47,089 nucleotides of DNA from Bacteroidota bacterium. GTDB lineage: Bacteria; Bacteroidota; Bacteroidia; Chitinophagales; LD1. Below the pieces are notes generated by a model. That model was not told where the DNA came from. It did not search any database and saw only the letters and a list, made by a program, of their open reading frames with translations. Location of the stretch: positions 1 through 47,089 of the forward strand of contig JAPLES010000024.1 in assembly GCA_026391075.1 (NCBI GenBank), given 5' to 3'. Below are positions 28,558-36,140 of this stretch, in pieces. The position numbers were made by a program, and so were the translations under genes. Positions within the stretch are counted from its first letter, which is position 1. Each line of letters opens with the position of its first letter.

Positions 28558-30360
28558 ATGAATACCACTTCTGAAAAGGAAAATACGTTTGGAATTATTG
28601 CACCTGAAGTACCCAACACAAAATATTTTTTAACCACTGAGCAATTCAACAAAGGCGTAGGCACGCATTTTATTAAACATGCCAATCGCACTTTAGAAAA
28701 AGGTCAGAAGTTTATGGTGGGGCTTTCGCATGGGCAATCACCGGCCGGTGTGTATCAATATATTTTTGAGCATTACAGCGAACTCAAAAATCGGCAGAAT
28801 ATACTTTACACTTTTGTCAATTCACCTAGTTTGCGACAGCGCAGTCTTGAAGGAGTTATGGATGCGCGTGAATTTGTAAAAAAACTTTTTCGCAATCGTT
28901 TAATTACCCGCGAACAAATTATTGGCTATAGTTTCAGTCACGAAAGTATGGAAGCCTACGTGGCAGAATTCAATCAATCGGTTTCTACTTATTTGAAAGA
29001 ACATAACAAAGAAGGTTTTGATTATGTGTTTCTTTCCTGCAATCCGCGAGGTATGGTGGCCGCCATTGAACGCAAGTCAACAGCTTTTGATTCTACCGAA
29101 ATTGTTGTGGTGGTTGACAGCAACAAACAGAAAAAAATTACAGGTACTCCGTATTTTTTGATGCGTTCTAAACGCATTGCCTTTCTGGCCACCAAAGCCG
29201 ATAAGAGACGACCACTAGCGTGGCTTTTTGCCATTGATGCAAAACCCGACCAAAGCCCCGGCTTTTTGCGATACATACCTAATGTGCAAAAACGCATGAC
29301 CGTTTTCATTGATGACAAAGCGTTAACCTGGCCGCAAGTAGAAGTAAAACGAGAAACGCCTTATGGCATCAGCACTATCCGTGTTGACACTGCAAATACA
29401 TATAAAGAAAACGCGAAAGAAAAGTTACCAGTCGTAATTCTCATTCACGGATTCCTAGGTTTAAACTCATACGATGGATTACTGTCCATTATTCCTTCGC
29501 ACTTATACATAGCAGCTGCTATGCATTACGGCTCTATACCAAACGATCTTCCGCCTTCCGAATACTCTCACCATATTGCCAGTAATATTGATGCCGTGGT
29601 TGATTACTTCGGTTCGAAGGGTCACTCGGTTTACATTTACGACCACTCAATGGGCAACATCTATTTTATGATGATTGACCGTGAGTTGAATAAATATCCA
29701 GCGGTAAAAAAATATTTGCGAGGTCGCATTGGTGCTAATCCATTCTTTGGAGAAGAAGCCAAACATGCCACCATTGGGTTTTTAGATAATGTAATTCTGC
29801 CTTCGCTAAAACACATCAAAGGATTTGCGGCTAAAACTATGTTGGTTACGCTGCGAAGAGTTATTCCCTTGGATTCAAAGAACGGAGTGCGCAAACGTGG
29901 CATTCAACTTTCAGACTGGCTCATTAGTAAAGAAAGCAACATGCGCGAACGCATTTGGGCGGCTGCTAAAGAACGTATCCTTTACCTGATGACGAATATG
30001 GATTCGTTGCCGCATCTCAATCGCATTCCTATTGAGCGCGCGTTAAATCGTTTACCTGCAAAAGTGTTTGCTATTCAAACACATTCTGCCCTCGAGCAAA
30101 GTATCCCTTTTGACAAACAAAAAGGATTGGTGAATGTTCCAAACAAAAATATTCCTGTGCTTATTCTCAAAAGCGAGCGCGATGGTGTAGCACGTTTTGT
30201 ACCCCGCATTTATGAAGGCAAAAACATTGAAGTAATGGATGTAACCAATCACAACGAATACGATCTCTTTCGCGAACATCTCTTTCACATGGCGCATCCA
30301 CACCGCGCTACTCGCATTATTGATGAGTTTATAAGGAAAACAGAAGAAGAGAATAAGTGA
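28558..30360 (+). CDS. Fusion of a degenerate NagB/6PGL-like domain with an alpha/beta hydrolase
   Basis: The N-terminal half (about 20-240) of this 600-residue protein resembles the glucosamine-6-phosphate deaminase/6-phosphogluconolactonase fold. GLSHGQSPAGVYQYI (55-69) stands for GLATGSTPxxxY and DYVFLSCNPRGMVAAI for LxLGxGxDGHxAS. The usual catalytic Asp and His positions are changed, so the domain may only bind. The second half (about 265-595) is an alpha/beta hydrolase with an HGFLG oxyanion loop (297-301), a nucleophile elbow DHSMGN (Ser364) and a late His region (NHNEYDLFREH). No signal peptide is seen. I cannot name a substrate. A lactonase-like or acyl-ester activity is possible. 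Confidence 0.75.
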   Translation: MNTTSEKENTFGIIAPEVPNTKYFLTTEQFNKGVGTHFIKHANRTLEKGQKFMVGLSHGQSPAGVYQYIFEHYSELKNRQNILYTFVNSPSLRQRSLEGVMDAREFVKKLFRNRLITREQIIGYSFSHESMEAYVAEFNQSVSTYLKEHNKEGFDYVFLSCNPRGMVAAIERKSTAFDSTEIVVVVDSNKQKKITGTPYFLMRSKRIAFLATKADKRRPLAWLFAIDAKPDQSPGFLRYIPNVQKRMTVFIDDKALTWPQVEVKRETPYGISTIRVDTANTYKENAKEKLPVVILIHGFLGLNSYDGLLSIIPSHLYIAAAMHYGSIPNDLPPSEYSHHIASNIDAVVDYFGSKGHSVYIYDHSMGNIYFMMIDRELNKYPAVKKYLRGRIGANPFFGEEAKHATIGFLDNVILPSLKHIKGFAAKTMLVTLRRVIPLDSKNGVRKRGIQLSDWLISKESNMRERIWAAAKERILYLMTNMDSLPHLNRIPIERALNRLPAKVFAIQTHSALEQSIPFDKQKGLVNVPNKNIPVLILKSERDGVARFVPRIYEGKNIEVMDVTNHNEYDLFREHLFHMAHPHRATRIIDEFIRKTEEENK

Positions 30361-32715: not shown

Positions 32716-33390
32716 ATGCGAAGACTCATCAGTTTTTTTGTTCTCTTATTTTTAAAATGTCTGTCGGCTGTATTCTACAAATTCAAAGTGGGTTGGCCTG
32801 TTGAACAAATTCGATGGAACGAAGTGCGCCTAATCATTTTTCTAAGCCACACTTCGCTTTTCGAACCTATCTTTCTGGGCTTTTTACCCACCAGTTTTTT
32901 GTGGAGGCTTTCCGGTCATTTAGCTGCGCCCGGTGCCGATAAAACCATGAACCGTCCAATTGTGGGAACATTATATAAGTTGATGAGCCCCGGCATTACT
33001 TCTATAAGCAGAAAGCGCGATGATACCTGGGAACATTTTATGGATACCATTACAAATGACTCCATCATAATGATTGCACCAGAAGGTAGAATGAAACGAA
33101 AAAACAGTTTAGATCTGGAAGGAAATAAAATGACGGTACGAGGTGGTGTGGCCGATATTCTTTCGCACTTAGATAAAGGACAAGTAGCAATTGCCTATAG
33201 TGGCGGATTGCATCATGTGCAAATACCGGGTGAAGGATTGCCTAAGCTTTTTAAAACGTTGAAAATAAATATTGACGCACCTGAAATTAGCGACTACAAG
33301 AAATTTTTTAGTGGCGTTATTGGAAGTGCGGAATGGAAAAAACAAGTGCTTGAAGATTTACAACATCGTTTAGAAACAAAAATTCCATAA
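32716..33390 (+). CDS. PlsC-like 1-acyl-glycerol-3-phosphate acyltransferase
   Basis: The 224-residue protein has an N-terminal hydrophobic segment (about 4-22) and the acyltransferase motifs HTSLFE (His45 to Glu50) and APEGRMKR. The first motif has Glu where most family members have Asp (HX4D), a variant that may alter activity. Family members acylate lysophosphatidate or related lipids at the membrane. It opens a probable operon with an HACD-type dehydratase and an acyl-CoA ligase, which supports a lipid-building role. Confidence 0.8.
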   Translation: MRRLISFFVLLFLKCLSAVFYKFKVGWPVEQIRWNEVRLIIFLSHTSLFEPIFLGFLPTSFLWRLSGHLAAPGADKTMNRPIVGTLYKLMSPGITSISRKRDDTWEHFMDTITNDSIIMIAPEGRMKRKNSLDLEGNKMTVRGGVADILSHLDKGQVAIAYSGGLHHVQIPGEGLPKLFKTLKINIDAPEISDYKKFFSGVIGSAEWKKQVLEDLQHRLETKIP

Positions 33391-33437
33391 ATTTTTTGAC
33401 AGAAGATTATATTGTTACTCCACTAAATCATTCAACT

Positions 33438-34037
33438 ATGAACACCTCCGTAAAGTTTTATTTAGCCGCTTACAATTTTATAGCTTTTGTTTTTTGGGCA
33501 CTTTATCTGGCGTTCTATTTTACGAGTGGCTTTCAAATGAACAGCATCAATCTATTCTTGCTAAATATGGCACAAGGAATGGCGGTATTAGAAATTCTGC
33601 ACGTAATTATAAAATGGGTGAAGTCACCTGTGGTTTCTACTAGCGTGCAAGTGTTTTCACGCATTTTAATTTTGGTGCTCATCAATGTTTTTATTCAAAA
33701 TTATTCAACACTTTTTGTTTTTACCAAAGGAGTAAAAATTGTTTCCATTGCCTGGGGTGTTACAGAACTAGTTCGCTACTCCCTTTATTTTCTTTCGCTC
33801 TTCGGTAAACAACCCGCTGCATTGTTGTGGATGCGTTATTCCTTTTTCATTGTCCTTTATCCGCTTGGTGTAACCGGAGAGTGGTTTATTTTGGTTACGC
33901 CAACTGTTACTAACGGAATTGCATTTACTGCTTACAACATATTTTTAGCGGCCAGTGTTTTTTCTTATGGTTATTATTTTCCGATACTTTACAAATACAT
34001 GTGGGCACAGCGCAAATCAAAAATTAATAATTTTTAG
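33438..34037 (+). CDS. HACD/PHS1-like 3-hydroxyacyl-CoA dehydratase (PTPLA family)
   Basis: The 199-residue multi-span membrane protein matches the PTPLA/HACD family, the 3-hydroxyacyl-CoA dehydratases of very-long-chain fatty acid elongation in eukaryotes. Family segments are LAAYNFIAFVFWALYL (9-24), MAVLEILHVIIKWVKSP (48-64), QVFSRILIL (71-79), WGVTELVRYSLYFLSL (106-121) and RYSFFIVLYPLGVTGEW (133-149). Tyr141 and Glu148 have the seven-residue spacing of the catalytic Tyr149 and Glu156 of yeast Phs1. I chose the ATG at 33438; the frame is open from a TTG at 33396, but family members begin close to this ATG. The ligase gene starts 2 nt downstream. Confidence 0.88.
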   Translation: MNTSVKFYLAAYNFIAFVFWALYLAFYFTSGFQMNSINLFLLNMAQGMAVLEILHVIIKWVKSPVVSTSVQVFSRILILVLINVFIQNYSTLFVFTKGVKIVSIAWGVTELVRYSLYFLSLFGKQPAALLWMRYSFFIVLYPLGVTGEWFILVTPTVTNGIAFTAYNIFLAASVFSYGYYFPILYKYMWAQRKSKINNF

Positions 34038-34039
34038 TT

Positions 34040-35695
34040 ATGGAAAATTTAAAAACTCCGTTAGAGATGCTCTACCATTGGGAGCAAACAACGCCCGATA
34101 AAATTTTCATGCTGCAACCTTTTGAAGGAGCGTGGAAAAAATTTACCTGGAAAGAAGCCGCGTTGGAAATAAGAAAAATGGCTGCGGTTTTACAATCGTT
34201 TAACCTTCCGCCAAAATCAAGGATTGGTTTAGTGTCAAAAAATTGCGCGCATTGGATGATGGCAGATTTAGCAATTATGATGGCGGGTTATGAATCCATT
34301 CCTGTTTACCCGAATGTAAATGCCGAAACGCTGAATTATGTTTTACAACACAGCGATGCAAAACTTTTACTGGTAGGAAAATTGGATGATTGGAATTTTA
34401 TGAAAGCCGGTGTGCCTGATGGCGTGCAGTGTATTAGTTTTCCGTGGTATGGCGCAAAACAAAACGGTTTTCAGTATTGGGAAGAACTAGTGAAAGACAC
34501 GAAACCACTTCAAGGATTTCCAAATAATAATTTGGATGATGTAATGACCATTATCTACACATCGGGCACTACAGGCAAACCGAAAGGTGTGGTGCACTCG
34601 TATCGTAATTTTGCGTGGGCTACCACCATGGGAAAAACTTTTGTGGGTTTAAAAGATGGAGAGGAAAGATTGCTTTCGTATCTACCACTTTCTCACATTG
34701 CAGAGCGAATGCTGATTGAGATGGCAGGCGTTTATACCAATAGCGAAATATGGTTTGCAGAGAGTTTAGATTTGTTTGCAAAAAATTTAGCCGAAGCTCA
34801 GCCCACAATTTTCCTGGGCGTACCGCGCATTTGGACAAAATTTCAAATGGGTGTTTTAGGTAAACTTTCGCAGCGCAAATTGAATGTGTTGCTTTCTATT
34901 CCCATCGTAAAAAATATTATTCGCAATAAAATTAAAACCGGTTTAGGCTTAAGTAAATGCCGCCATGCAGTCACCGGCTCGGCTCCTATTTCAACATCGC
35001 TCATTAATTGGTGGGCAAAGTTGGGAGTAGAAATTGAAGAAGTTTATTCCATGACAGAGAATTGCGCCATCTCACATTTCAATCGTAAACCAGATTTTAA
35101 ATTAGGTACCGTAGGCAAACCAATGCCAGGTGTAGAAATGAAATTTAGCGATAGTGCCGAAATTTTAATTCAGGTTCCTTGCAATATGCAAGGCTATTAT
35201 CGCGAACCCGGATTGACTGCGGCTGCATTGAAAGATGGTTGGCTGCACACGGGCGACAGAGGTGCTTTAGATGCAGATGGATTTTTAAAAATTACGGGAC
35301 GAGTAAAAGAAATTTTCAAGACCGATAAAGGGAAATACATTTCGCCAGCTCCTATTGAAATGAAAATTTTAAAAAATCAATTAGTAGAACAAATTTGTGT
35401 GGTGGGTTCCTCTTTGCCGCAACCCATTGGTTTAATTGTGCTTTCGCTTGACGCAAAAGCAAACGACAAAAATTATTTACAAGAAAGTTTATCCAAAACA
35501 TTGCATGAAATAAATCTGGAATTAGAAAAGCACGAGCGCATTCAAAAGTTGATAGTGATGAAAGAAGAATGGACGATTGAAAACGGATTGCTCACTCCAA
35601 CCATGAAAATAAAACGCAATCCTATTGAAGATAAATATCAATTGCATTATGAAAGTTGGTATAACCAAAAGGAGGATATAGTTTTTGAATCGTAA
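34040..35695 (+). CDS. Long-chain fatty acid--CoA ligase (AMP-binding)
   Basis: The 551-residue adenylate-forming enzyme activates a fatty acid to its CoA thioester. It has the P-loop-like TSGTTGKPKG (174-183), YSMTENCA, WLHTGDRG with ITGRVKEIFKTDKGKYISP, and a C-terminal Lys-containing TPTMKIKRN. This corresponds to the long-chain acyl-CoA synthetase type. It begins 2 nt after the HACD gene and follows the acyltransferase, so the operon could activate, dehydrate or elongate, and transfer acyl chains (inference). Confidence 0.92.
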   Translation: MENLKTPLEMLYHWEQTTPDKIFMLQPFEGAWKKFTWKEAALEIRKMAAVLQSFNLPPKSRIGLVSKNCAHWMMADLAIMMAGYESIPVYPNVNAETLNYVLQHSDAKLLLVGKLDDWNFMKAGVPDGVQCISFPWYGAKQNGFQYWEELVKDTKPLQGFPNNNLDDVMTIIYTSGTTGKPKGVVHSYRNFAWATTMGKTFVGLKDGEERLLSYLPLSHIAERMLIEMAGVYTNSEIWFAESLDLFAKNLAEAQPTIFLGVPRIWTKFQMGVLGKLSQRKLNVLLSIPIVKNIIRNKIKTGLGLSKCRHAVTGSAPISTSLINWWAKLGVEIEEVYSMTENCAISHFNRKPDFKLGTVGKPMPGVEMKFSDSAEILIQVPCNMQGYYREPGLTAAALKDGWLHTGDRGALDADGFLKITGRVKEIFKTDKGKYISPAPIEMKILKNQLVEQICVVGSSLPQPIGLIVLSLDAKANDKNYLQESLSKTLHEINLELEKHERIQKLIVMKEEWTIENGLLTPTMKIKRNPIEDKYQLHYESWYNQKEDIVFES

Positions 35696-35717: not shown

Positions 35718-36140
35718 ATGCAAAAATTATTTTTTATCGTTTTGGTGTTTTCACAAATCTGTTTGGTGTCGTGCAACAATCAAGGTTCTAAAACTTCGAG
35801 TGAAGAACAACCAATTGTCTTTCGTTTTGAACTAGATAGCAGCGGAGCTATTTCATCGCAGAAAATTAAAAAGCAGTTGGCCGATTTAGCCCTAAAAATT
35901 AGTGCCAATGCTGATAGAGTGGTGATGCATAGTTTTACCGAAAAAATGAATACAGAACAGGAGAGTGTAGATACCGCATATGCTTTGGCTGCTGCTGCAA
36001 AAGAAATTATGTTTCACTCGGCTACTGAAAGAATTTATTACAGCGTAGGGATTGACGCCTTAGGATTTAAAAACCCGATTGATGCAGCGCATCCTAATTC
36101 GCGGGTAAACCGAAGAATTGAAATTGAGTATTTAAAATAG
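35718..36140 (+). CDS. Small lipoprotein with a divergent OmpA-like end
   Basis: The 140-residue product has a lipoprotein signal (LVSC, Cys19, then NNQG). The mature part resembles a shortened OmpA domain: paired helices (KKQLADLALKISANADRVV, AYALAAAAKEIMF) and the terminal SRVNRRIEIEYLK, matching the NRRVEI end of OmpA domains. Some core residues are missing, so peptidoglycan binding is uncertain. The frame extends upstream to a TTG at 35685 that overlaps the ligase gene, but the ATG at 35718 gives a proper signal peptide. It is the last gene of the lipid operon. Confidence 0.7.
   Translation: MQKLFFIVLVFSQICLVSCNNQGSKTSSEEQPIVFRFELDSSGAISSQKIKKQLADLALKISANADRVVMHSFTEKMNTEQESVDTAYALAAAAKEIMFHSATERIYYSVGIDALGFKNPIDAAHPNSRVNRRIEIEYLK

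Follow-up and report, generated by a model that had tools for sequence, protein, structure and literature searches.

A HACD/PTPLA-family protein beside an acyl-CoA ligase in Bacteroidota: known family, new gene context

What might a dehydratase of the eukaryotic type do in a bacterium? The question is raised by a 47,089-nucleotide (nt) stretch of Bacteroidota DNA, here called the window (contig JAPLES010000024.1, from a genome of 3.6 Mb in 91 contigs that is 98% complete), which carries a gene for a putative 3-hydroxyacyl-coenzyme A (CoA) dehydratase of the HACD/PTPLA family, hereafter HACD. HACD enzymes appear in the literature found as parts of the eukaryotic elongation cycle, and a literature search for a bacterial HACD/PTPLA found no report, which is not proof that none exists. 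The window protein is confirmed as a full-length member of the family with an intact active-site pair. It matches PF04387 with E 5.9e-35 (120.7 bits, cut-off 27; profile positions 1-161 of 162), and this is the sole Pfam family that it matches and the single PF04387 match genome-wide. Its sole relative in the PDB up to E 1 is HPO-8 of C. elegans (22of chain B, phmmer E 5.4e-21), named there a very-long-chain (3R)-3-hydroxyacyl-CoA dehydratase, and a profile of 21 bacterial rows matches HPO-8 at E 4.5e-42.

In an alignment of 35 rows (HPO-8 and 34 bacterial HACD copies, one fragment included), Tyr141 and Glu148 of the window protein align with YPxGVxGE of HPO-8 and are invariant, likewise Glu110, Arg113, Tyr114, Arg133, Tyr134 and others. 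The spacing of 7 between the two residues is also that of Tyr149 and Glu156 in yeast Phs1, whose substitution is reported, in an excerpt of PMC5008698, to abolish activity, and of the catalytic pair Tyr176/Glu183 given for HACD2 in part of PMC11904967. An earlier sequence-only reading of the window had claimed both the family and the catalytic spacing of the yeast enzyme, and both hold. An AlphaFold2 model (8 sequences; predicted local distance difference test 83.1, predicted TM score 0.80) has six long helices and aligns with TMEM120A (VIA-align, Z 12.7, root-mean-square deviation 4.0, 190 aligned), ELOVL7 (Z 11.1, deviation 4.5, 179 aligned) and ceramide synthase (Z 8.3), all with Z values within the chance range of helical bundles. 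These three belong to a set reported to share a six-transmembrane barrel with predicted models of HACD1-4 (PMC11919693, in part). Foldseek returned nothing at E 0.001 or less with the model, and the HPO-8 structure was absent from the rows compared in both fold searches. Since such Z values are reachable by chance and the Foldseek result was null, the fold likeness is taken as support and not as proof. A HACD-like membrane protein devoid of dehydratase activity, acting as a scaffold or in some other acyl-CoA function of the six-helix barrel, would agree with TMEM120A, which aligns with the HACD model and binds CoA (excerpt of PMC8376247), and with the dehydratase-independent role reported for HACD2 in the same part of PMC11904967, but is very unlikely in view of a Tyr141/Glu148 pair that stays constant in rows whose identity to the window protein falls to about 29%.

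The distribution of HACD was followed in three samples, namely 99 relatives, an order sample of 396 genomes and an even phylum sample of 394 genomes. PF04387 was found over its cut-off in 26 of the 99 relatives: 15 of the 18 genomes of the window genus (own genome included), 6 of the 7 of its sister genus g4, none of the 5 of g2 and g3 together and 5 of 69 in other families. The order sample held 34 HACD genomes, distributed as 21 in f1 (the family of the window genome), 6 in f11, 4 in f18, 2 in f21 and 1 in f14, and in the phylum sample HACD was found in the window genome alone (1/394). A tree of the 34 rows needed, over all seven groups, no more changes than the minimum (6/6), with f18 holding together and likewise f1 as a whole; the exceptions are that f14 falls inside f11, that the two f21 rows lie apart, and that the window genus is not one clade with respect to g4. 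Because the tree largely follows the families, old residence with many losses fits better than a recent import, and this suggests that HACD has probably resided for long in one order of Bacteroidota. The single eukaryotic row of the tree sits on a long branch, so that the tree can neither date nor polarise an old transfer; within this limit it shows nothing that points to a recent import from eukaryotes. A viral origin and plasmid carriage were rejected, as no HACD relative was confirmed when viral contigs were scanned by alignment, and tblastn found no match in PLSDB.

The surroundings of HACD were read in each of the 34 genomes, some of them cut by contig ends. The sequence-only reading had HACD locked between a PlsC-like acyltransferase and an acyl-CoA ligase 2 nt away. 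The ligase side of this is borne out, the HACD stop at 34037 and the ligase start at 34040 leaving a gap of 2 nt, and the acyltransferase side was put too strongly, with a PF01553 match that is below its cut-off and a gene that adjoins HACD in 2 of the 34 genomes. The PlsC-like open reading frame (ORF) ends 47 nt upstream of the HACD start codon and reads HTSLFE where the HX4D motif of PlsC-like acyltransferases has Asp, and a PDB search with it gave gyrase A matches only, all weak (E 0.014 or worse). The complete row of PlsC-like gene, HACD and ligase is confined to the window genome (G000) and its nearest relative G015 (locus L002); in G001 a 75% homologue of the PlsC-like gene lies about 5.6 kb from a HACD fragment. 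The HACD-ligase pair is found in six genomes (G000, G015, G006, G009, G011 and G012), in the last four of which the genes overlap or lie at most 12 nt apart, except in G006 with 135 nt. These six genomes show four different flanks. Apart from the pair, the flanks share no more than two partial matches, between ORFs that are not adjacent (31% and 48%), so that the pair has stayed together while its surroundings changed. Orthologues of the ligase (72% identity or more) occur in 10 of the 18 genomes of the genus, all HACD-bearing, and adjoin HACD in six; HACD-less genomes commonly carry more distant ligases. A constant operon was rejected, since Por_Secre_tail, MFS, TPR and EGF-like proteins are among those encoded next to HACD in f1 and further families (19 neighbour proteins scanned).

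The adjoining ligase and PlsC-like genes could also be the partners of a synthetic hydratase, by which HACD would make (3R)-3-hydroxyacyl-CoA from enoyl-CoA for hydroxy-fatty-acid lipids or polyhydroxyalkanoate. 3-Hydroxy fatty acids are characteristic of Gram-negative membranes and have been studied in soil Bacteroidetes, according to an excerpt of PMC10025309. The usual donor is however hydroxyacyl-acyl carrier protein (ACP) from type II fatty-acid synthesis (FAS II), and with an acyltransferase beside HACD in two genomes only, this is held to be quite improbable.

A different context was found in families f11 and f18, where 9 of the 10 HACD genes share their locus with FadE-, FabG4- and/or MarR-type genes (a FadE-type acyl-CoA dehydrogenase in 6, a high-molecular-weight FabG in 8 and a MarR regulator in 6). 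The FabG4-type gene comes after HACD in 8 of these 10 loci, once with an ORF between, and G515 is cut at that place. Taking the longest ORFs, FadE, HACD and FabG4 overlap by 4 and 8 nt in G499 (L124), with a divergent FadI-like thiolase alongside. For the FabG of locus L126, the score with NF006110 exceeds the curated cut-off, and the matches to HMwFabG/FabG4 structures, 6uut and 3v1t among them, have E-values of 4e-91 to 5e-87; the best model for the HACD-linked FadE is the acyl-CoA dehydrogenase NF058590 (585.6 bits, just under the cut-off of 600). Two genomes of one genus, G509 with HACD and G046 without it, agree in the order of FadE, a pair of small genes, MarR and FabG4 (identities in gene order 88, 75, 75, 79 and 66%, the last over 210 residues owing to truncation of the G509 gene), so that HACD is an optional gene of that reductase unit. 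Full-length FabG4 was found in 10 of the 99 relatives, three of them HACD-bearing, in a scan at E 1e-70 over the full length of NF006110 with at most 14 candidates scored per genome; an eleventh match, in G065, is a 249-aa frame.

That FadE, HACD, FabG4 and thiolase stand side by side in L124 would also be expected of a thiolase-driven reverse beta-oxidation, in which FadA-, FabG4-, HACD- and FadE-type enzymes run backwards and lengthen acyl-CoA chains, and the reductive activity of FabG4 with NADH has been reported as four times the reverse (PMC6008564, in part). This is nevertheless unlikely, considering that the highest-scoring model for the FadE is that of an acyl-CoA dehydrogenase and that no full-length FabG4 was found in the window genus; control by a MarR regulator is not diagnostic.

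The protein is a HACD-family member with an intact active-site pair, and its gene is linked to that of an acyl-CoA ligase. This makes CoA-linked fatty-acid chemistry likely, and the FadE-, FabG4-, thiolase- and MarR-type neighbours elsewhere in the order indicate oxidation or salvage. The reading that is tentatively favoured is a catalytically competent (3R)-3-hydroxyacyl-CoA dehydratase/hydratase of the membrane that serves the CoA-linked oxidation or salvage of fatty acids, and not ELO-type elongation, and that has probably long been resident in the order. The family, the active-site residues, the linkage, the distribution and the presence or absence of HACD in one slot are observed, whereas activity, stereochemistry, substrate and direction are inferred. 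HACD would interconvert (3R)-3-hydroxyacyl-CoA and trans-2-enoyl-CoA, a reversible reaction by which it could also be an (R)-specific enoyl-CoA hydratase. In f11 and f18, beside the high-molecular-weight FabG as 3-ketoacyl/3-hydroxyacyl-CoA oxidoreductase, it would take the HtdX step of mycobacteria, and FadE and thiolase would complete a CoA-linked cycle with HACD and FabG4. (3R)-3-Hydroxy fatty acids are common in Bacteroidota lipids. In the window, the ligase as partner of HACD would activate such acids, when free, to CoA and HACD would dehydrate the product, the enoyl-CoA then entering beta-oxidation or being re-acylated, possibly by the adjacent PlsC-like protein. There are eight 3HCDH_N matches in the window genome, including frames of 726 and 640 aa, the former being a 709-aa FadB-type beta-oxidation enzyme with ECH_1, 3HCDH_N and 3HCDH domains. 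The latter, a second FadB-like ORF, is split in two overlapping frames by an apparent frameshift, real or an assembly error, and an intact-looking 709-aa homologue is present in G017 (L158).

Several observations weigh against this assignment to oxidation or salvage. The ligase link is not universal, five HACD-bearing genomes of the window genus being without an orthologue, and within the genus no significant association links the presence of the ligase to that of HACD (hypergeometric P about 0.07). In g4, 5 of the 6 HACD genes are directly preceded by a metallo-beta-lactamase-fold gene, a context that the assignment leaves unexplained; this gene (286 aa, 75-100% identity to the L008 copy, Pfam basis for two copies) overlaps HACD by 4 nt in four genomes and by more in G023, where the longest ORF was taken, and our guess is that a thioesterase would suit it. 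In the tenth f11/f18 genome, G055, which is cut upstream of HACD, the visible downstream side has other genes and no FabG4, which is on another contig; four HACD-less f18 genomes keep MarR and FabG4 side by side; and FabG4 could run in the synthetic direction. Full-length FabG4 was found in none of the 30 f1 genomes and none of the 18 of the window genus at E 1e-70, and a FadE, FabG4 or MarR neighbour in none of the 24 HACD genomes of f1, f14 and f21 over the stretch read. As the HACDs of these three families showed no such neighbours in that stretch, the oxidation context is carried over to them from other families, and the sole match of the window to the FadE/FabG4/MarR set is a generic short-chain dehydrogenase/reductase 30 kb from HACD. 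MaoC, finally, is rare in HACD-less relatives too (2/30 in all).

MaoC-family genes were found in none of the 18 genomes of the window genus, with positive controls, and HACD is a candidate for the handling of (3R)-3-hydroxy fatty acids there. A complementarity of MaoC and HACD is not supported, MaoC being rare with or without HACD, and because of its rarity in HACD-less relatives no clean pattern of MaoC replacement emerges. The FabA/FabZ domain is kept in the window genome in a 470-aa frame, probably an LpxC-FabZ fusion; HACD as a replacement of FabZ is thereby rejected, and it is an addition to FabZ.

CoA-based elongation or remodelling of fatty acids had been suggested from the operon in the sequence-only reading. 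Its CoA-linked chemistry stands, by family and ligase link, remodelling is possible, and elongation of the eukaryotic type fares badly for lack of recognised partners and with oxidation-type neighbours elsewhere. The genome search for partners that it had called for gave ELO in 0/99 relatives, in a search without a working positive control so that absence is not proven, and recognised no plant-KCS- or TECR-type partner in the window genome. The one match there to the FAE1/KCS family (36.3 bits, cut-off 27) is a protein of KASIII type (PF08541, PF08545), and the family is patchy in the genus, with no match in 8 of its HACD-bearing genomes. The strong Steroid_dh protein of the window genome has steroid 5-alpha-reductase as the nearer relative (7c83, E 2.4e-55) and the enoyl-CoA reductase ART-1 as the more distant one (E 2.6e-10), and a second, weaker match (31.1 bits, cut-off 22.6) has no PDB relative. 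In eukaryotic-type elongation HACD would perform the third step, as it does in eukaryotes (excerpt of PMC10864336), with partners that escaped recognition, such as a KASIII-like enzyme and an SRD5A-like protein. Strong homologues of Steroid_dh, a family of the TECR superfamily, (E 1e-40 or better) were found in 46 of the 99 relatives, that is in 24 of the 26 HACD genomes versus 22 of the 73 without HACD, and a row of KASIII, ACP and KASIII genes exists in the window genome. The Steroid_dh protein is however SRD5A-like and beside a 3Beta_HSD-like gene, it is common to HACD-less kin, so that the excess may be kinship alone, and it is not strong in the HACD genomes G055 and G083. Together with the missing ELO matches, the patchy FAE1 family and the lack of an elongation-partner gene beside HACD among the neighbours read, this makes such elongation improbable.

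Some gene rows seen in the course of these searches are given for themselves. At L105 1351-3363 (G000:C27), and also in L103, a KASIII-type gene, a 74-aa ACP-looking ORF and a second KASIII-like ORF stand in a row, and at L088 7999-9777 (G000:C14) the steroid 5-alpha-reductase homologue is directly downstream of a 3Beta_HSD/epimerase-like gene. A type III polyketide-synthase-like gene followed by methyltransferase-like and FAD-dependent oxidoreductase-like genes was seen in L096, L098, L099 and L104, with a divergent membrane-protein gene beside such rows in several relatives (labels by eye).

The coordinates of the features are collected in Table 1. The small putative lipoprotein ORF has no Pfam match and a weak N-terminal match to NF050142, below the cut-off. 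Promoter-like sites (12 versus 11.4 in shuffles) and terminator-like sites (5 versus 3.8) showed no excess. Upstream in the window, the protein of 31392-32357 matches NF053583 (LAPAL motif putative phage structural protein) below the cut-off, and has 87-93% identity to its counterparts in three relatives; it is also present about 3 kb from the ligase in G017. In the 600-aa ORF of 28558-30360, PF01182 marks a 6-phosphogluconolactonase/glucosamine-isomerase-like domain at the N-terminus; the long C-terminal remainder matches no Pfam family and is alpha/beta hydrolase-like by eye.

Table 1. Positions of the features in the window and, for the last two rows, in other loci.
Feature	Position	Strand	Basis or remark
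PlsC-like acyltransferase (weak family match; HX4E)	32716..33390	+	PF01553 20.4 bits, below cut-off 23
HACD/PTPLA-family 3-hydroxyacyl-CoA dehydratase, 199 amino acids (aa), six predicted helices	33438..34037	+	PF04387, HPO-8, AlphaFold2; ATG at 33438, stop at 34037
Codon of Tyr141 (TAT), predicted catalytic, = Phs1 Tyr149	33858..33860	+	Invariant in 35/35 rows
Codon of Glu148 (GAG), predicted catalytic, = Phs1 Glu156	33879..33881	+	Invariant in 35/35 rows
Acyl-CoA ligase (AMP-binding + AMP-binding_C_3), 551 aa	34040..35695	+	PF00501 E 3e-66, PF23562 E 2.1e-11
Small putative lipoprotein, 140 aa, possibly last operon gene	35718..36140	+	Position after ligase kept in L002
Metallo-beta-lactamase-fold gene of g4	L008 9144-10004; also L037, L038, L039, L041, L043		L008 and L041 are one contig
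Split FadB-like ORF	L157 7416-9281 and 9263-9544 (G000:C77)	-	

The family is known and its gene context is new. A bacterial HACD branch with the same active-site pair and another gene context would widen the role of the family. Disease is linked to the human form of this membrane enzyme, for which the bacterial branch would be a small model, and the question of where the eukaryotic elongase dehydratase came from would become open to test. That HACD is an old bacterial family and not a eukaryotic invention, serving as the (3R)-hydroxyacyl-CoA dehydratase step of a membrane-linked FadE/FabG4/thiolase cycle of Bacteroidota in place of HtdX, to which it would not be homologous, and that the eukaryotic elongase dehydratase may derive from such a module, is a wider proposal that is considered rather doubtful.

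Among known systems, FabZ and FabA of bacterial FAS II share with HACD the dehydration of a 3-hydroxyacyl-thioester, whereas HACD belongs to another family. With eukaryotic HACD, Phs1 and PAS2 the window protein has in common a PF04387 match over the cut-off, the Tyr/Glu pair at a spacing of 7 and the six helices of its model; it differs in being bacterial and beside a ligase, with no ELO, plant-KCS or TECR partner recognised in its genome, and other bacterial HACDs stand beside FadE/FabG4/MarR-type genes (f11/f18) or a metallo-beta-lactamase-fold gene (g4). From HtdX, presumably a MaoC-type protein, HACD differs as a member of another family (PF04387 only) and as a membrane protein by prediction. 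Mycobacterial FabG4 is a 3-ketoacyl-CoA reductase and the adjacent HtdX converts 3-hydroxyacyl-CoA to enoyl-CoA, which are proposed as successive steps in an excerpt of PMC6008564. The HACD of f11 and f18 shares with HtdX both its predicted reaction and its place next to a FabG4-family reductase.

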